Source of the DNA: Serratia plymuthica
GTDB taxonomy: Bacteria; Pseudomonadota; Gammaproteobacteria; Enterobacterales; Enterobacteriaceae
DNA: 64,000 nucleotides
NCBI RefSeq assembly: GCF_018336935.1
Contig: NZ_CP068771.1
Span: forward strand, 62,001-126,000
Reading direction: 5' to 3'
Shown in pieces: positions 52,279 through 64,000 of the stretch (the stretch's first letter is position 1; each line of letters begins with the position of its first letter). A model generated the notes under the pieces. That model saw nothing but the letters and a program-made list of their open reading frames with translations. It did not search any database and had not been told where the DNA came from. A program made the position numbers and the translations under genes.

Positions 52279-53052
52279 TTATTTAGTGGTGTAACCACCG
52301 TTGATGAGAATGGTTTGGCCAGTGATCCACCACCCGTCGCTCACCAGATGGCGAATGAAAGGCACCACGTCTTCGATATCGGTCAGGCCGGTTTTGCTGA
52401 AAGGCGAAAGCGCTGCTGCGGTTTTGTGATACGCCACAGCGTCGGCACCTTCTGCAGGGTAAAAGAAGGGCGTATCCATTGGACCTGGTCCCACTGCGGT
52501 CACCGAAATACCGCGTTCGCCGAACTCCTTAGAGGCCGCCCGGGTGAAATGTTCTACCGGGGCTTTGGTGCCTGCGTAGGCGGCGTAGAAGGGGGTATAA
52601 GCGCCAAGGAGCGAGGTGACTATCGTACAGATTTTACCGTTGTCGTTGAGGTTTTTACCCGCCTCTTTGAGGAAAAAGAAAGCGGTTTTTGAGTTGACCG
52701 ATGTCATCTCGTCGTATTCTGGTTCGCTGATCTCTGCCATTGGCTTTTTGAGCACTTTGCCGACGGTGTTGATAGCGATATCCGGTTTACCAATGGCGGC
52801 GATGGCATCGGCAAAGAGTTTCTCGACGGCGGCTGCGGTCGTCAGATCGGCCTGCAATGCCACCGCCTGCGCGCCAGCGGCTTCGATAGCGGCCAGGGTT
52901 TCATCGGCATCCGCTTTTGAGGATGCGCTGTTATAGTGAATGGCAATGGCCTTCGCGCCTTGAGCGGCCAAATCGCGGGCGATCAAACCGCCGAGGTTTT
53001 TGGCGCCGCCAGCAATGAGGACGGTTTTGCCTTTGATAGAATGGTCTGCCAT
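52279..53052 (-). CDS. Short-chain dehydrogenase/reductase, copy 1
   Basis: 257-residue classical SDR: GGAKNLGGLIARDLAAQGAK cofactor region, NTVGK, Ser in VTSLLGAYTPF near 146, YxxxK as YAGTKAP near 160, PGPMDTPFFYPAEG, and the ILINGGYTTK end. Oxidoreductase of unknown substrate. Its promoter block (GAGTCTAGACG near 53081) is repeated before the broken copy at 54.4 kb. A third SDR gene lies between them. Confidence 0.85.
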   Translation of the reverse strand: MADHSIKGKTVLIAGGAKNLGGLIARDLAAQGAKAIAIHYNSASSKADADETLAAIEAAGAQAVALQADLTTAAAVEKLFADAIAAIGKPDIAINTVGKVLKKPMAEISEPEYDEMTSVNSKTAFFFLKEAGKNLNDNGKICTIVTSLLGAYTPFYAAYAGTKAPVEHFTRAASKEFGERGISVTAVGPGPMDTPFFYPAEGADAVAYHKTAAALSPFSKTGLTDIEDVVPFIRHLVSDGWWITGQTILINGGYTTK

Positions 53053-53493
53053 GAAACTCTCCTTGGATAGTAGTAGAAAACTGAGTCTAGACGTTTCTAT
53101 CGCAAAGATAAGTGGTAATAAATCGAATAAACAATCCAGAAAAGCAGACTAATCTTTAGGAGTAATTATCCAAAGAAAACCGCTGATTGAGGTAACACAT
53201 TGTCAATAGAGGCTGTGATTTCGAAATGGCTCGAACGATGACATGCTGAAGTATTGATGTACGGTAGCGTAAAAGGCCTCTCTGTTTTCTCAGCTTTTTT
53301 GCCACGTGATTGTGTTTATGCGTAGTTTTTTTTTAGTCGCTAAAAAAAATTGCTTTTGAAAGCTGAATACAGTCTGAAACTGATCCCCGGCCATAATAAA
53401 TAGCGTTACTTATGGTGATATGTCAGGTCGGCAAACTTCAAACCTTGCTGACCCGATGCATCCGACTATGCGGACAGGTTGTGATACTGGCGG
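53053..53493. other. Promoter region of SDR copy 1 plus gene-free DNA
   Basis: The first ~110 bp match the region upstream of the broken SDR copy (54711-54820), including GTCTAGAC and GCAAAGATAAG. The rest carries no recognisable feature. Confidence 0.5.
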
Positions 53494-54312
53494 TTAGTTA
53501 ATAGGAGAGATGATGCCTCCGTTGATGAAGCTAGTGGTCCCTGTCATCCAACGTGCTTCTGGTGAAACCAGATAGAGCGCCAGACCGGTAATATCGGGGA
53601 TATTGCCGAGACCTCCATCAATCGACATGGATTGCAGCCAAGCAATATTCTCATCAGATTCTGCAGGGTAAAAGAATGAGGTATCAAGTGGACCCGGTGC
53701 TATGCAGTTTACTGTAATCCCTCGTGGGCCGAGTTCTTTCGCCAGTGCTTTGCTGAAATGCTCGAGAGGTGCCTTGCTACCCGCGTAACCGGCATAGGTC
53801 GGTGCAAAAGCGGCGACCATGGTGGTGACAAAACTCAATATACGTCCTTCATCCGCCATTTTTTTCGACGCTTCTTTAAGCAGGAAAAAGGCGGCTTTAG
53901 TATTAACGTTGAAAAGAGAATCAAATTCCGCTTCGTCAAACTCCGCGAGCGGTTTGCGTATGATTTTTCCCGCAGTATTAATAAGAATGTCCACTTTGCC
54001 AAATTTTTCGAGCGCCGCATCGAATAAAGCCGTGGCCTGTGCTGGGCGGGTAAGGTCGGCCTGGAAAATCAACGCTTCCTGACCATATTTACGGACGGTC
54101 TCGGCAGTTTCTTCCGCCAATGCCTGTTTCGACGTAGAATTATAGTGGATCACCACATCTGCGCCTTCCTGCGCTAACAGTTCGGCCAGCGCCCGACCCA
54201 CGTTAGCCGATGCACCTATCACCATTGCCGTTTTGCCAACAAAGCGGCGTGCCCCAGTACTGGTCGCTGAAGGGTATGTTTTCTTGATGGTTTGATGACT
54301 TATGGCAACCAT
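53494..54312 (-). CDS. Short-chain dehydrogenase/reductase, copy 2
   Basis: 272 residues from the ATG after AAAGGAGTTTGAAT. MVIGASANVGRALAELLAQE cofactor motif, NTAGKIIRKPLAEFDEAEFD, Ser in FVTTMVAAFAP, YAGSKAPLEHFSKA (YxxxK), PGPLDTSFFYPAESDE, and TGTTSFINGGI end. Clearly related to copy 1 along its whole length, so the pair arose by old duplication or repeated acquisition. Confidence 0.85.
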   Translation of the reverse strand: MVAISHQTIKKTYPSATSTGARRFVGKTAMVIGASANVGRALAELLAQEGADVVIHYNSTSKQALAEETAETVRKYGQEALIFQADLTRPAQATALFDAALEKFGKVDILINTAGKIIRKPLAEFDEAEFDSLFNVNTKAAFFLLKEASKKMADEGRILSFVTTMVAAFAPTYAGYAGSKAPLEHFSKALAKELGPRGITVNCIAPGPLDTSFFYPAESDENIAWLQSMSIDGGLGNIPDITGLALYLVSPEARWMTGTTSFINGGIISPIN

Positions 54313-54400
54313 ATTCAAACTCCTTTGAAAGAAGAAATAGATGCACGTTATTCACATGCACGATGCGATTGGGGCGAAAATACAGCGTTGATGCTGTCGG

Positions 54401-54707
54401 TTATTTGGTGGTATAGCCACCGTTGATCAGGATCGTCTGCCCAGTGGTCCAGCAACCGTCACTCACCAGATGGCGGATGCAAGGCGCTGTGTCTTGGAGA
54501 TTGGTCAGGTCGGTTTTGCTGAAAAAGCGCTGCTGCGGTTTTGTGATTCGCCGCGGCGTAGGCATCTGCTTTTGAGGATGCGTTGTTATAGTGAATGGCA
54601 ATGGCCTTCGCATCTTGAGCGGCTAAATCGAGGGTGATCAGACCGTCAAGGTTTTTGGCACCACTGGCGATGAATGCGGTTTTGCTTTTGATCGAATGGA
54701 CCGCCAT
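54401..54707 (-). pseudogene. Broken third SDR copy
   Basis: Begins MAVHSIKSKTAFIASGAKNL and ends TGQTILINGGYTTK exactly as copy 1, but the middle (about 150 residues, including the active site) is deleted: ASSKADA joins directly to NHKTAAAL, followed by a frameshift. Upstream DNA also matches copy 1, so a gene with its promoter was duplicated and then decayed. Confidence 0.8.
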
Positions 54708-55138: not shown

Positions 55139-56050
55139 CTATTTATCACTTAACCCATTACTGGTCCGACGCCGCAGATATTCACGTGGCGAACGGTATC
55201 CCAGCGCACTGTGCGGATGCCATTCGTTATAGTGTTCGAACACCTCCGCAAGGTACCTCGCTGCTGTCAGCCCATCCGGTTTTGGCATGATGCTGATGTA
55301 GTCACGCTTCATCGTTTTTACGAAGCTCTCTGCCATACCGTTACTTTCCGGGCTGCGCACTGCTGTTGTTTTCGGCTCCAGACCCACCATTTTTGCGAAC
55401 CGGCGTGTTTCGTGAGCCCGATAGGCCGAGCCATTATCTGTCAGCCATTCAACCGAGATCGGCGGTAGTCGGTTTCCGAAGCGACGCTCCACCGCACCCA
55501 GCATCACATCCTGTACCGTAGCGCTGTCGTACCCTCTGGTACTCGCCATCCAGTGCAGCGCTTCACGATCGCAGCAGTCCAGTGCAAAGGTAACCCGCAG
55601 TTTCTCTCCATTGTCGCAACGGAACTCGAACCCGTCGGAACACCAACGTCGATTGCTTTCTTTTACCGCTACCTTGCCCGTGTGCGCCCGGTTTGATACT
55701 GCCAGTGCGGGCCTGTGCTCAAGTAATAACGCATGTTGACGCATGATCCGATAGACTCGTTTGGCGTTAATAACCGCGACGCCTTCATTTTCCGACTGTC
55801 TGCGCAACAACGCCCATACCCGCCGGTAGCCGTAGGTCGGAACTTCACCGATAACAGCATGGATACGGTTCAGTGCTTCCGTATCGTCGGGCTGACGCTT
55901 GCGTCGGCGATCCTGCCAGTCAGCCGGGCGGTGGGTTATCGCATGAAGCTGCGCACGTGAGACCCGCAAACAGCGACTGACGAAGCTTATTCGCCATCCT
56001 CTGGTAACAAGGGTACGTGCGCTATCCACTTTTTTGCCGGCCGATATCAA
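55139..56050 (-). CDS. IS2-group OrfB transposase
   Basis: About 300 residues reading from the frameshift region with orfA; the annotated frame opens at 56071. rve integrase core: [15 protein letters not shown] (first Asp), [15 protein letters not shown] (second Asp), [18 protein letters not shown] (Glu), and [20 protein letters not shown]. Expressed as a fusion with OrfA by -1 frameshift in this group. Confidence 0.85.
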
Positions 56051-56351
56051 CGGCTTCGCGCAGTAACTCAACTTCCATCGTTTTCTTACCCAACATACGC
56101 TGAAGCTCTTTGATCTGCTTCATGGCTGCGACCAGTTCCGACGCGGGAACAACCTGTTGACCGGAAGTGACGGCGGTAAGACTGCCGTCCTGATATTGCT
56201 TACGCCAGAGGAACAACTGACTTGCAGCAACACCGTGTTGACGGGCAACCATCGACACAGTCATACCTGGCTCGAAGCTCTGCTGAACGATAGCCATTTT
56301 TTCCTGCGGGGTACGTCGTCTGCGGCGCTCAGGGCCTAAAACGTCGATCAT
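56022..56351 (-). CDS. IS2-group OrfA
   Basis: 109 residues from the internal [23 protein letters not shown], helix-turn-helix [20 protein letters not shown] near 36-55, and the leucine-zipper helix [20 protein letters not shown]. Overlaps orfB by about 30-50 bp, the usual place of the programmed frameshift. Confidence 0.85.
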
Positions 56352-56447
56352 CCTCAACTCCATGACTAGTCTAAAACTAGCATTAAGACTATCACTTATT
56401 AAGCGAGTCAAAGTGTCTGGATATTCAAGGGTCTAGTCTATAATATA

Positions 56448-59013: not shown

Positions 59014-59435
59014 TAATATTTGCAGGGATAGGTGGCAGACGGCCAGTCTCACTAATTTATAGGGGGTGTTATTCGTAGGGAAGTAATTAATATATTTGGT
59101 AAGGTGGTGAATTATTAGTCGGGAATTTATGGCTGCTGTAAAACGTTCCAAGAAATGGAATCTTGAAGTGCCTGAGATCAATTTGAGTAAAACTCCATTC
59201 CTGACTGTGGATAAAAGTAAAACTGCGCTAAAAGTAATTAATAGTGTTGGTTAAAACATAATCCATAAGAGGTTTCACAACAATGCTTTGGATGTGTTTA
59301 TTTCGTTCAGGAAGCTTTGCAAACTCCGTTTTATTATACTTTAGGTTATGCTGATTATGAAAATTGGCCTGTTTTTTATACGAGTAAGAGGAGTTAAAAA
59401 GTAATCTGGACAATCTGCTGTCAGATGTAGGAGAG
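59014..59435. other. AT-rich stretch with one tiny frame
   Basis: Contains a 41-codon frame at 59129-59254 (MAAVKRSKKWNLEVPEINLS and on) without a clear ribosome site; possibly a remnant. Nothing else seen. Confidence 0.3.
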
Positions 59436-59701: not shown

Positions 59702-59846
59702 GTAGTGATGGTTACCCCTAGGTTTTATTGTTTTTGTCTGGCATTTTGAAAAAATAATCAACGTAAAATATGAGAGGTTTTTTTATAATTAACTTGTTAT
59801 GATTGACGACATTAGGTCAAATCATTTAATCTTTCCGTGTTGTACT

Positions 59847-60044
59847 GTCGTCTCCGGACGACCACCAATGCTCAGTGGGTCTGTGATGAGCGCCTTCGGG
59901 TGACCCAGCTGTCGAAAGACGGCCACCAATGATCTGGCCATCTGCGAGGATCGCCTTCGGGTGATGGCAAAAGAAAGCTTCCGTAGCCTGAGAGGGAGCA
60001 CGCCAGGTATGGTGTGGTACATCTGCCCGCCTTTGGGAGCAGAT
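59847..60044 (+). ncRNA. Structured pseudoknot RNA, copy 1 (STAXI-like)
   Basis: 198 nt. Hairpin GTCGTC/GACGAC with a TCCG loop (59847-59862). Pseudoknot 1: GCTCA 59870 with TGAGC 59887, crossed by GGGTC 59877 with GACCC 59902. Hairpin CTGTC-GAAA-GACGG (59909-59922). Pseudoknot 2: GATC 59931 with GATC 59949, crossed by GCCATC 59937 with GATGGC 59963. Then hairpins CACGCC/GGTGTG and ATCTGC/GCAGAT. Both pseudoknots share CACCAAT before and GCCTTCGGGT after the first stem. Tandem pseudoknots with UNCG loops near an XerD-type integrase fit the STAXI motif. Confidence 0.65.
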
Positions 60045-60775
60045 ATCGCTCATCCAACGTAGTATTCGGAGCGGTTAAGGCTGCTGAAAAGTCATCTCAA
60101 TGCCTTGGTGCTATCTCGCCAGGCACACATCTACATTGGGCAGTCCTTGCCTGGATAAATTAGTCACAACTGACTGATATCGCTTACTTCTTTAAAGCTG
60201 TTAAAGGCTTAAATGACGTGTTGCCGACGATGCAACCTTTGAACGAACGTGTAAAGCCAATGGGTACATTTGGCTGCTTACGTGAGTCTCATTGGGAGCA
60301 GAGGAGCGCGCGTCACTTGTGAAGAGGCGAAGACACTACCAAGTGACGCGCGTAGCGCATAACGTCTCAAACCACGCACGACGTGGCTTTCAACGTTTTA
60401 CTACCATCTGACCAACATGTAGTCCGTGTCAGTACGGTCTTAAACACTCATTCACTTCAACGTAATTACGACGGGAAATCCGTTTTGAACGTTTCACTAT
60501 CTAAAAGGAGGAAATCGACTCGGTATCGATGGCGACACTACGAACAGTAGTGTTGGAGGCAGCTTGACGAAAGTCAGCTCTGCATAAGCAGCAAACGGAT
60601 CAGAGATCTGGGGTGCCTCGCAAGAACTCAACATTTCGCCGCCCCGATGCACAGATACCAGTCGAGACGCAGGAAGCGCAAAAGCAACCGTGTCGTCGGG
60701 GTTGAAATTATTGGGGTACAGATCCGTCTGCTTCTTTTAAAGTAGAGGGACGTGTATCCAATTGGAGATATTGAA
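60045..60775. other. Non-coding, hairpin-rich region upstream of the integrase
   Basis: No gene. Strong inverted repeats: CGCGCGTCACTTG (60307) with CAAGTGACGCGCG (60340), 13 bp perfect; CCACG/CGTGG at 60372-60386; ACACTAC-GAACA-GTAGTGT at 60535-60553. A perfect ribosome-site-like AAAGGAGG at 60504 precedes a 12-codon frame (ATG at 60529, MATLRTVVLEAA). The region may hold the integrase promoter, regulatory RNA or a recombination site. Confidence 0.5.
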
Positions 60776-61785: not shown

Positions 61786-61909
61786 CTCAAAATCATAATC
61801 GTACTGAGACGTTACGTTATTAGGATAACAGGAAATATTATTCCAAAACCAGGGGCGCATGCCCTCTTGACAGATCAGTGATTTGCTCGGAAAATAAACA
61901 TGCTTACTC

Positions 61910-62108
61910 GTTGTCTTCGGACAACCACCAATGCTCAATGGGTCTGTGATGAGCGCCTTCGGGTGACCTAGCTGTCAGTCGACAGCCACCAATGATCCAG
62001 TCACTTGTGAGGATCGCCTTCGGGTAGTGGCAAAAAAAAGCTTCCGTAGCTTGAAAGGAAGCACACCGTTTACGGTGTAGTACATCTGCCCGCCTTTGAG
62101 AGTAGATG
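61910..62108 (+). ncRNA. Structured pseudoknot RNA, copy 2 (STAXI-like)
   Basis: 199 nt, same plan as copy 1, with compensatory changes. Hairpin GTTGTC/GACAAC with TTCG loop (C-G to T-A pair changes). Pseudoknot 1 with GGGTC/GACCT, pseudoknot 2 GATC/GATC crossed by GTCACT/AGTGGC (against GCCATC/GATGGC), hairpin CTGTC-AGTC-GACAG, hairpin CACACC/GGTGTA and ATCTGC/GTAGAT. The conserved loops GCCTTCGGGT and CACCAAT are unchanged. Lies between the integrase and the first cargo gene. Confidence 0.65.
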
Positions 62109-62175: not shown

Positions 62176-62235
62176 TCCCAAGGGAAATACCTTTCCCCTG
62201 GGAGTGGTGTTTCCCTTTTTTACAGGAGAAACACC
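62176..62235 (+). promoter_or_regulatory. Attenuator-like leader 1
   Basis: Segment a GGGAAATACC (62182-62191), segment c GGTGTTTCCC (62206-62215, followed by TTTTTT), segment d GAAACACC (62228-62235) ending at the start codon. c can pair with a as a 10-bp terminator stem (one G-U pair) or with d, hiding the AGGAG and start. A separate hairpin TCCCAAGGGAAA/TTTCCCCTGGGA forms if a pairs locally. Confidence 0.6.
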
Positions 62236-62574
62236 ATGTCTGTTTTTACTTCTTCAGTTGTTCCTGATTTCTTCTCAACCCTGCACCGTGTCAAATCGGC
62301 TGTCCAGCGAATACCTTTTCGCATGACGCCGCCGCGTTTTACTGACTGGTACGTCAATGCAGCAGGTAATTTTGCCGTTCGCGCGCATGTTATCTGCAGT
62401 GATGATGGTTCGGTCAGCGCGTTGCTGACGCTGCGCAAAGGTTGGTACAAAGCCGAATATACCTACGCAAGCACCCATGTTGTGCTGGCTTGCAAACATA
62501 CCGAGCGCAGAAAAGCTTACCGACTCGCTAGCCAACATGCTGAGCATTTGGCCAGACTGCGTTACCGCTTTTAG
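62236..62574 (+). CDS. ICE-type cargo protein, function unknown
   Basis: 112 residues starting MSVFTSSVVPDFFSTLHRVK; no recognised domain. The start is the ATG directly after the leader hairpin. Contains CSDDGSVSALLTLRKGWYKA and a basic C-terminal helix. Part of a same-strand series of cargo genes behind the integrase, each with the same type of leader. Translation is likely controlled by that leader. Confidence 0.6.
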   Translation: MSVFTSSVVPDFFSTLHRVKSAVQRIPFRMTPPRFTDWYVNAAGNFAVRAHVICSDDGSVSALLTLRKGWYKAEYTYASTHVVLACKHTERRKAYRLASQHAEHLARLRYRF

Positions 62575-62603
62575 AGCTGTCGGTTTACCCACTTAATACC
62601 CTG

Positions 62604-62664
62604 ACGGGGATTTACACCCGTTATGGGGATAAATCCCGCTTTTCTTTTTGTGGAGGATTTATCG
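62604..62664 (+). promoter_or_regulatory. Attenuator-like leader 2
   Basis: Segment a GGGATTTA (62607-62614), hairpin ACGGG/CCCGT around it, segment c TAAATCCC (62630-62637, followed by GCTTTTCTTTTT), segment d GGATTTATC (62655-62663) just before ATG 62665. GATAAATCC pairs with d and covers the GGAGG ribosome site; c with a makes a terminator. Confidence 0.6.
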
Positions 62665-63039
62665 ATGCATACCCAGTTACCCAACGTACTTGACGTGAAA
62701 ACCGCGCTTGATGCGTTTCATTTCCTTTGCCTGGTTGAAGGTAAGCTCATGAGTATACGGGCTTGCCAGCGCCTGGGATTGGGTATTGAACGTGAAGACC
62801 CCACTGAGCTGAATGATGTGGAAAATGCCGTTATCAATGCGGGAGAGGCCTTTGGTGGTTTCCTGCTGGTCATGCAGTACGGCTATATATCGACACTTTC
62901 CGCTAACGGGCAAGCGCTTATGGCTCGCCTGGATACGCTGAGCAAAGATATTCACGCGTCTTATTGGGCGCAGGCCGTGGAGCAAGGCAAGCGTTATGTC
63001 GAAGCCGACATAGCTATTGGCGAGCTCGAGGTTTGGTGA
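62665..63039 (+). CDS. ICE-type cargo protein, function unknown
   Basis: 124 residues: MHTQLPNVLDVKTALDAFHF, SIRACQRLGLGIEREDPTEL, mostly helical with no recognised domain. GGAGG precedes the ATG inside the leader hairpin. Second gene of the cargo series. Confidence 0.6.
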   Translation: MHTQLPNVLDVKTALDAFHFLCLVEGKLMSIRACQRLGLGIEREDPTELNDVENAVINAGEAFGGFLLVMQYGYISTLSANGQALMARLDTLSKDIHASYWAQAVEQGKRYVEADIAIGELEVW

Positions 63040-63070
63040 TCGGCACGGCAGCCTGACAGACACACATCCT

Positions 63071-63135
63071 GACGGGGATTTATTCCCGTCCGGGGGATAA
63101 ATCCCCCCAATTTTTTTGTTACCGGAGGATTTATC
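63071..63135 (+). promoter_or_regulatory. Attenuator-like leader 3
   Basis: Hairpin GACGGG/CCCGTC (63071-63076, 63085-63090). Segment a GGGGATTTAT (63074-63083) and segment c ATAAATCCCC (63097-63106, followed by CCAATTTTTTT) can form a 10-bp terminator. Segment d GGATTTATC (63127-63135) abuts the GTG start and pairs with GATAAATCC at 63096-63104. Confidence 0.6.
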
Positions 63136-63663
63136 GTGAGTATGAACGTGTATTTTGTCACACCACCGTCCCAGGACGCGTGGATTGATTTTACCCTGGC
63201 GGTGACCGAGGTGTTCTGGTTGTTGCCGTATGAGGCACGACCAGAAGGTGTCACGGAAGCCGGCCAGCTGTTCGATGGCATGATCTTCGAAACAGCCGGT
63301 TTACGTTTATCATCGGAATCAGAGGAAAATATCCCGATGCAACCGCTGCCTTACGTCGAAGAACGTGTGGGGTTCTTTCAGCGCCCCGACTTTTTTCACC
63401 GACTGGTCCTGATACTGCTCCATAACCTGTGTCCGGGCTCTGTACGGATAGAGCGGAACGACACCAGACTCTCCAAATATCCAGGATGGGAGTTGCCACT
63501 ACTCTGGTTGCGGCATCATCTCAAACGCCCGGAACTTGTTGCTCCGGAGGATGTAGATGAAGCGACCATGACTGATGACTCCACGCTTTTCTATTTGGCG
63601 AAGTACAGCACTCTCATCGACTACTCCAATGACTTGCCGTGTCACTGGCGGGTTATTGTCTGA
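63136..63663 (+). CDS. ICE-type cargo protein, function unknown
   Basis: 175 residues from a GTG directly after the leader hairpin: MSMNVYFVTPPSQDAWIDFT start, then LPYVEERVGFFQRPDFFHRL. No recognised domain; the body looks globular with no membrane segment. Third gene of the series. Confidence 0.6.
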   Translation: MSMNVYFVTPPSQDAWIDFTLAVTEVFWLLPYEARPEGVTEAGQLFDGMIFETAGLRLSSESEENIPMQPLPYVEERVGFFQRPDFFHRLVLILLHNLCPGSVRIERNDTRLSKYPGWELPLLWLRHHLKRPELVAPEDVDEATMTDDSTLFYLAKYSTLIDYSNDLPCHWRVIV

Positions 63664-63731
63664 ATGGACGAAGTGTTGACGCAGCGCCTGAGTCTGGCGC
63701 ATTCAGCAGCATAACTGCTTTTTAATTACCC

Positions 63732-63784
63732 GGCAGGGCCTCCCTGCAGGGGAGCTCCTGTCTGTTTATCGAGAGGAGTGACCC
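63732..63784 (+). promoter_or_regulatory. Attenuator-like leader 4
   Basis: Hairpin GCAGGG/CCCTGC (63733-63747). CTCCT (63755-63759) pairs with AGGAG (63774-63778), extended by GGG 63749 with CCC 63782-63784 next to the ATG. The alternative a:c helix is less perfect and lacks a strong T-run. Confidence 0.5.
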
Positions 63785-64000
63785 ATGGGGCTTGATATTA
63801 ACTTTTTCCGTCAGCGTAAGGCTGACTATCCGATGTTGCCGGTTAACGGCGACTGGACACCCGTTGGCGACTGGGTGCCGTGTTCACCAGCGTGGCTGGA
63901 GGACGGCGGTGATTGCGCGCAGGCACCGCGAATATACAACCACAAAACGTGTAACCACTACCATCCGCCGCAACTGGTTCACTCCTGTCATTTTCGCGGG
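63785..64000 (+). CDS. ICE-type cargo protein, partial
   Basis: 72 codons from the ATG to the right edge of the window, no stop seen: MGLDINFFRQRKADYPMLPV, cysteine- and histidine-rich end (CNHYHPPQLVHSCHF). No family recognised. Fourth gene with the leader architecture. Confidence 0.55.
   Translation, partial: MGLDINFFRQRKADYPMLPVNGDWTPVGDWVPCSPAWLEDGGDCAQAPRIYNHKTCNHYHPPQLVHSCHFRG

Follow-up and report, generated by a model that had tools for sequence, protein, structure and literature searches.

Near the end of the stretch of Serratia plymuthica DNA analysed here (contig NZ_CP068771.1, positions 62,001 to 126,000 of the forward strand; 64,000 nucleotides (nt), hereafter the window), four consecutive genes of an element resembling an integrative and conjugative element (ICE) are each preceded by a leader in which one segment, c, is complementary both to an upstream segment, a, and to a downstream segment, d, which covers the ribosome-binding site (RBS). 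This raises the question of how such genes are expressed, as the initial annotation of the leaders held that both pairings shut the gene off. Here it is proposed, tentatively and with somewhat less than an even chance of being right, that the leaders form a fail-safe three-strand RNA switch which needs a termination-resistant polymerase, the resistance coming in cis from the STAXI RNA ahead of the first gene. The pairings, their co-variation, the U-tracts, the operon terminators, the position of STAXI at the operon head and a promoter-like box before it were computed from the sequence.

Leader anatomy and selection on structure

All window features given here lie on the forward strand. Leader 1 has a predicted 5' hairpin, P1 (62176..62203), which holds segment a (62180..62191); segment c (62206-62217), identified by helix score, fold and sequence, forms 12 pairs with a and is followed by a U-tract (together 62206..62221), and segment d (62228..62235), with 8 pairs to c, abuts the ATG at 62236 of gene 1 (62236..62574, 112 amino acids). 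In leader 2, segment a (62607..62614) has 8 ungapped pairs with c (62628..62637, from sequence and fold), a U-rich tract follows, and d (62655..62663), with 9 pairs to c, precedes the ATG at 62665 of gene 2 (62665..63039, 124 amino acids). The a-b-c part of leader 3 (63074..63106) was found by the terminator scan as a terminator-like hairpin of 14 pairs followed by CCAATTTTTT; its segments a (63074-63086) and c (63094-63106) have 13 ungapped pairs, and d (63127..63135), with 9 pairs to c, abuts the GTG at 63136 of gene 3 (63136..63663, 175 amino acids). Leader 4 (63732..63779) is a weak form, with a at 63732-63738, c at 63754-63762 and d at 63774-63779, short pairings (7 for a:c and 6 for c:d) and no U-tract 3' of c, a tract that leaders 1 to 3 all have; it stands before gene 4 (ATG 63785, 161 amino acids), which occupies 63785..64000 and continues beyond the window end. 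None of the four products has a Pfam match. The gap from d to the start codon is 0, 1 and 0 nt in leaders 1 to 3 and 5 nt in leader 4. The a/b/c/d plan given for leaders 1 to 3 in the initial annotation is borne out by the pairings, the U-tracts and the placing of d at or 1 nt before the start, and so is the weaker a:c helix of leader 4.

The four consecutive leaders first described are confirmed, but the array extends past the window into the continuation of the genome beyond the cut in gene 4 (L002), where it takes in 8 of the 10 cluster genes and leaves two small ones without. Leaders were ranked by a triad score, for which a c:d helix reaching the start region was joined to an a:c helix using the same c, and the pair with the best score was kept; it is a simple stacking sum over ungapped helices with partly approximate G-U terms and gives ranks only, not free energies. 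Five of the eight accepted leaders are strong (-25 or better; starts 62236, 62665, 63136, L002 5041 and L002 7751), and three weaker ones, at 63785 (-22.8), L002 4358 (-23.5) and L002 6714 (-19.1), were accepted by their anatomy and orthologues. In the leader of the ArdC gene (L002 5041) the helices picked by score differ, by eye, from the a and c arms of its orthologues. Leader anatomy is absent from L002 6331, which has no triad, and from L002 6045, whose triad (-21.4) is built from upstream coding sequence and is taken as chance.

A score of -25 was reached by 99 of 132 distinct homologous leaders versus 11 of 178 genes serving as controls, with a Fisher p of about 1e-38 that ignores kinship, the 132 including many orthologues, which are not independent, and a few rows that are probably no leaders. 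Controls were taken from 400 kb of the window's own genome, without GC matching for other species. For 87 of the 132 leaders, no more than one dinucleotide shuffle in 40 did as well, and the medians of the eight families with at least ten rows each ran from -22.8 (G4) and -23.3 (DUF1281) up to -36.9 (G3). Among the IncI-plasmid genes in the DUF1281 neighbourhood of L024, 1 of 12 reached -25. No Rfam match fell on the leaders, in the window or in the scanned loci, at the thresholds used.

Arms were then exchanged between 38 diverse leaders. The own a:c pairing scored -18.3 versus -12.8 when swapped (standard deviation (s.d.) 0.53), and the own c:d pairing -12.4 versus -9.6 (s.d. 0.34), with none of 2000 permutations reaching either value; the own a:c topped all partners in 14 of the 38. 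Because own arms beat swapped arms, these sequence comparisons support selection on the leader structure, as had been argued from the differing stems of the window leaders.

For folding, 113 of the 132 leaders were used, the 19 with triads weaker than -20 being left out. When folded up to just before d, 81 of the 113 form a:c; when d is included, 92 form c:d; and both predicted folds are found in 64, the median cost of holding d unpaired being 7.4 kcal/mol. Window leaders 1 to 3 give both folds at a folded length of 68 nt, and a T-run of four or more is present in the c:d loop of 65% of the 113. The prediction is that freshly emerged c gives the terminator-like pairing and that the full-length pairing mostly masks the RBS, in agreement with the earlier expectation that a and d compete for c, giving one state that is terminator-like and one that masks the RBS.

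The same anatomy occurs beyond the Enterobacterales, before genes for DUF3577 proteins, which were found in 20 of 369 gammaproteobacterial genomes from 18 genera. The 23 DUF3577 loci gave 18 usable starts (four had no such open reading frame (ORF) and in one the start was too near the end), of which 14 reach -25, two sets of them being copies of one sequence. By eye, all 18 except L117 have the leader, with an ACCC...GGG hairpin containing a, followed by c and by d at the start codon. The co-variation tests were done without L117 and without the copies L107, L122 and L123, on 17 non-redundant leaders (13 from DUF3577 loci and 4 from STAXI loci). Own arms scored -14.8 versus -11.0 (s.d. 0.67) for c:d and -15.7 versus -12.75 (s.d. 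0.63) for a:c, neither being reached in 3000 permutations. For the 12 leaders outside Enterobacterales the values were -14.4 versus -10.5 for c:d (0 of 5000 permutations) and -15.7 versus -13.4 (s.d. 0.73) for a:c (8 of 5000). A TTTT run between -44 and -12 is missing in 10 of 13 DUF3577 leaders outside Enterobacterales, and the nine non-redundant leaders without TTTT, some of them related, still gave -16.4 versus -13.5 (s.d. 0.80) for a:c (4 of 5000 permutations), their c:d value being reached in 3 of 5000. Since a:c co-varies in leaders without the run, the comparison indicates that a:c cannot be a terminator only; the conserved core is the alternative pairing of c with a or d, with the terminator as an addition in many Enterobacterales leaders.

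The STAXI RNA and the predicted terminators behind it

Two matches to the STAXI RNA (RF01728) are present in the window, at 59846-60023 and 61909-62086, with 105.6 and 108.1 bits, respectively, versus a gathering cut-off of 40.5, and an EFASI RNA (RF02957) was found by Rfam at 60515-60664. The second STAXI copy, 178 nt long, is the proposed head of the transcript. Its 3' end is about 150 nt ahead of gene 1; the distance from STAXI to the gene 1 homologue is 125-150 nt in each of the seven other cluster loci scanned (L003, L004, L006, L007, L008, L020 and L023). Ahead of the second copy is a promoter-like pair, TTGACA-17-GAAAAT (61867..61895), which with 10 of 12 consensus matches is the sole site of that quality in the 7.3 kb scanned; promoter-like sites overall number 6 there versus 6.3 expected by chance. 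Terminator-like sites are in excess in the same 7.3 kb (20 versus 7.2, s.d. 3.3), counted on both strands and with overlapping versions of one hairpin counted separately. TTGAC occurs in 24 of 30 STAXI upstream regions, some of them close relatives (4.2 in shuffles, s.d. 1.8), and in 17 of the 24 it lies 41-43 nt before STAXI. Because this box, called as a promoter by consensus only, stands at a fixed distance, STAXI would sit at the extreme 5' end of its transcript.

Seven of 394 Enterobacterales genomes have STAXI matches, at 27 places, three of them below the family cut-off. Wide loci were taken around 21 of these places, the two in the window itself and another four, on short or weak contigs, being set aside; the 21 include L086, below the Rfam cut-off, and the near-duplicate pairs L089/L100 and L097/L099. 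All ATG or GTG codons preceded by a Shine-Dalgarno sequence within 700 nt downstream were scanned, in controls as well as behind STAXI, and both helices had to score -8 or better. Seven of the 21 places, two near-duplicate pairs among them, have a triad of -33 or better, versus 5 of 1120 control segments; -25 is reached at 10 of the 21 versus 6.6% of controls; and a score of -30 combined with a c:d loop containing TTTT is found at 4 of the 21 versus none of the 1120. The genes behind STAXI elsewhere include DUF3577 followed by a single-stranded DNA-binding protein (SSB), an antirestriction protein and an N6-methylase. Another STAXI and DUF3577 pair lies in the window's own genome, 3 Mb off (G000:C1:3182651-3183430), in a possible second ICE.

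Strict terminators ending no more than 95 nt before a start codon are found in 18 of 144 codirectional gene pairs behind STAXI versus 1 of 119 controls (Fisher p 1.1e-4), several of the 18 being orthologous and several being the leader hairpins themselves. This set consists of genes up to 8 kb downstream of STAXI plus nine named loci, in some of which STAXI was placed by similarity instead of by Rfam, and in L011 at an assumed position. Before the methylase gene, 11 of 19 loci have a canonical terminator, its stem taking several different forms, that ends 59-79 nt ahead of the ATG, and the leader occupies the remaining space, so that the gene seems, from its sequence, to be reachable mainly by read-through. 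As a candidate antiterminator, STAXI lies directly downstream of a predicted promoter and has predicted terminators within the operon behind it.

At the DUF3577 locus L102, a radC RNA (RF01754) takes the place of STAXI; radC RNA was found in 1 of the 369 gammaproteobacterial genomes. In L105, L106, L108, L110, L116, L118 and L121, outside Enterobacterales, this place, about 80-250 nt before DUF3577, is taken by a stretch seen by eye to be rich in inverted repeats, which has no Rfam match up to an E-value of 0.5 and is possibly a new RNA family. Genome G653 (L128, L129) has four copies of radC RNA, of which three lie in the 3.4 kb immediately ahead of its DUF3577 gene; the leader-like stretches around the four copies were noted by eye only, and gene calls there are poor. 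A 'mir-612' match in L104 was below the cut-off and was discarded.

Proposed mechanism and its alternatives

In the proposed switch, the 5' hairpin P1 would hold a, and c would pair with either a or d, the latter being the Shine-Dalgarno region and the spacer. The c:d pairing would hide the ribosome site and a:c would free it, and a:c together with the U-tract 3' of c would be an intrinsic terminator as well. A polymerase that obeys terminators would then fail either way, as the RNA would end where a:c forms and, where P1 keeps a busy, read-through would be followed by masking of the RBS by c:d. Only a termination-resistant polymerase would complete the RNA while c is paired with a and d is left unpaired. 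The two roles of a:c, as translation-competent fold and as terminator, are suggested by the U-tracts, which would be needless if a:c only freed the RBS, and by the conservation of a:c in leaders without U-tracts, which would be odd if it only terminated. The double failure of an ordinary polymerase would call for an antiterminator, and STAXI is the natural candidate because of its position at the operon head, from where its RNA could confer resistance on the polymerase in cis, as the HK022 put RNA does. Termination and masking in the cell, a:c as the ON state and STAXI as the antiterminator are inferred here. The earlier statement that both pairings shut the gene off would hold for a terminator-obeying polymerase, but on read-through a:c should free the RBS.

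Transcription attenuators are a class with mutually exclusive terminator and antiterminator hairpins. Likewise, P1 and a:c are mutually exclusive in the predicted folds (P1 with c:d at full length versus a:c in the prefix), a U-tract follows a:c in leaders 1 to 3, and a GC-rich hairpin with a U-tract stands ahead of the gene in these three and not in leader 4. Unlike in attenuators, the repeat of a, d, is placed after the U-tract, corresponds to the RBS and would act on translation after read-through; as modelled, the leader is an attenuator joined to an RBS switch, with the attenuator features present in part only. In the repZ pseudoknot switch of ColIb-P9 (Rfam PK-repZ), the loop of a hairpin can pair with the 5' arm of the stem masking the RBS, and the leaders here may resemble it in this; they differ in that a reaches into the P1 stem, that they are repeated before many genes, and that no leader peptide or antisense RNA was identified, complementarity having been tested for STAXI and EFASI only. 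The STAXI, EFASI and radC families are present at these loci and exclude the gene leaders.

Like STAXI, the HK022 put RNA is a structured RNA directly behind a promoter in an Enterobacterales mobile element with terminators downstream, but put is about 70 nt long with two stem-loops (PMC9378689), whereas STAXI, here of 178 nt, is a repeated pseudoknot. RNA antiterminators at the heads of operons with internal terminators have been described in Gram-positive conjugative elements, namely canT of Tn916 (PMC11658703) and conAn of pLS20, where conAn2 acts with ConAn1 (PMC8955417). They share with the present loci an RNA element right after the main promoter, terminators within the operon and a guard against stray transcription. 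In contrast, the elements here are Gram-negative, their terminators double as RBS switches before single genes, and antitermination by STAXI is putative. A wider proposal, possible though rather doubtful, is that STAXI, or in other proteobacteria the radC RNA or the unlabelled structured stretch, are cis-acting processive antiterminator RNAs of Gram-negative ICEs, with the fail-safe leaders behind them silencing any polymerase that bypassed the head RNA.

Several observations weigh against the fail-safe switch driven by STAXI, which is modelled from sequence and folding. Leader 3 stays in a:c, not c:d, when the folded stretch is extended to 90 nt upstream and 12 nt into the gene, and the c:d loop is without a T-run of four or more in 35% of the 113 cluster leaders and 72% of the 18 DUF3577 leaders. 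The -25 score is missed by 33 of the 132 leaders, the weak groups being G4 and DUF1281. The own c:d pairing tops all partners in just 8 of the 38 diverse leaders; such low counts of own-arm best ranks are expected if all arms share a CTCC/GGAG core. RNAalifold gave only 3 pairs on a MAFFT alignment of 40 leaders, made without the G4 family, L009:7129 (probably no leader) and L004:9056 (a shortened leader), a poor result that probably comes from arms of differing sequence failing to register. Regarding STAXI itself, 14 of the 21 places lack a triad reaching -33 within 700 nt and 8 lack one reaching -20; some of the 14 have no sense gene behind them, or an integrase-sized ORF, judged by size only. 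STAXI was found in only one of the 18 DUF3577 loci scanned, from the window's own genome, and it also occurs with EFASI on small ColE1-like plasmids without the cluster behind, because of which it may have another or additional role.

One alternative is a switch acting on translation alone: segment a, in the loop of P1, would free the RBS by binding c, whether through a pseudoknot or through strand exchange, the U-tracts of Enterobacterales would be secondary, and STAXI would have another job. This is unlikely, although it deserves real weight: a:c co-varies in the nine DUF3577 leaders without TTTT, as given above, and 53% of the 113 cluster leaders and 56% of the 18 DUF3577 leaders have a possible pairing of the P1 loop with c of -5 kcal/mol or better. 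It leaves aside, however, the enrichment of terminators in these operons and the well-formed a:c helices with U-tracts of leaders 1 and 3. Much of a is in the P1 stem, the median share inside the loop being 0.30 in the cluster leaders and 0.21 in the DUF3577 leaders, about a third or less, which favours exchange over a simple pseudoknot.

The model of the initial annotation, a double lock opened by a protein or RNA encoded by the element and binding the leader in trans, is considered improbable. The conserved CCC/GGG hairpin and the inhibitory look of both pairings speak for it, but the stem sequences vary widely and the sequence shared among leaders is mainly this CCC/GGG clamp. STAXI and EFASI, as RNA candidates for trans pairing, have no excess complementarity to the eight leaders tested (z from -0.8 to 1.0, 60 shuffles each), and no protein candidate was sought.

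Less probable again is that STAXI and the leader hairpins act as single-stranded DNA (ssDNA) during conjugative entry, as ssDNA promoter or priming site, with expression confined to transfer. The kinds of genes found in these loci, ArdC, antirestriction protein, SSB and DUF1281/YfaB, resemble those of plasmid leading regions. The -35-like box at a fixed distance ahead of STAXI and the pairing in register with the RBS, which makes sense in RNA, argue against a role as ssDNA. Weinberg et al., who described STAXI as a pseudoknot repeated two or more times near DNA-handling genes, weighed an ssDNA role and preferred RNA because of the UUCG loops (PMC2864571), and in one strain vesicles were reported to contain both STAXI and EFASI RNA, as measured by real-time PCR (PMC12370729); the passages on these RNAs in the two papers state no function for either. 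Ordinary intergenic terminators with chance complementarity to Shine-Dalgarno regions, a reading helped by the loose scores being met by 11 of 178 control genes (-25) and 17% of the 1120 control segments (-20), are very hard to reconcile with the 99 of 132 leaders and the permutation tests, and can be set aside as highly improbable.

The gene cluster, its element and the meaning of the proposed switch

The genes with leaders had been described as the cargo of the element, a leader standing before every cargo gene; instead, they are a conserved anti-restriction cluster behind the STAXI RNA, since related clusters recur in other elements. Beyond the window its products are DUF3085 (L002 4358), ArdC (L002 5041), DUF1281 (L002 6714) and an N6-methylase (L002 7751). 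Between ArdC and DUF1281 are two leaderless genes (L002 6045-6603), one similar to CbtA_toxin (PF06755, L002 6045) and its small neighbour. Related clusters are present in S. marcescens pE36_1, a Citrobacter plasmid, E. coli, SGI4 of Salmonella, an ICE of Shiga toxin-producing E. coli, and Pantoea and Klebsiella plasmids, and leader homologues occur in Erwinia elements as well. A further 18 loci were found by DUF1281 similarity, most with several cluster genes, while L047-L050, which had weak DUF3085 matches, have no match to cluster proteins.

The window carries just the right end of the ICE-like element. Similarity to the ICE of pE36_1 (L003), its closest relative, begins at window position 59354, and none of the annotated conjugation genes of L003 align to the window. 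The apparent end of the element is a tRNA gene (L002 17645-17717) adjoining a tyrosine recombinase gene (L002 16418-17449). The first STAXI copy, followed by EFASI (59846-60664), lies upstream of an integrase gene, and small plasmids that also carry a Rop gene (L054, L055) have a comparable STAXI-EFASI unit, EFASI being identified there by eye. At 52279-54707 are two adjacent genes and an apparent broken further copy, which from their protein sequences are taken to be short-chain dehydrogenase-like, beside an element at 55139-56411 that is presumably IS3-like.

In the literature searched, with most subscription journals outside its reach, no description of these leaders was found. Even should STAXI serve another purpose, they constitute a widely distributed family of RNA switches, and the linkage of STAXI to operons full of terminator and RBS switches gives this RNA a testable role. 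If the proposed mechanism is true, it would be a Gram-negative counterpart to canT and conAn and a compact AND-gate, in which a termination-resistant polymerase is needed both for the RNA and for its translation. It would explain how, in a family of ICEs, stray transcription is kept from switching on the anti-restriction, SSB and methylase genes, and the operons of these elements would be readable solely from their own licensed promoters. The design shared across related elements, as seen in their sequences, points to a putative common way of silencing genes until they are needed.

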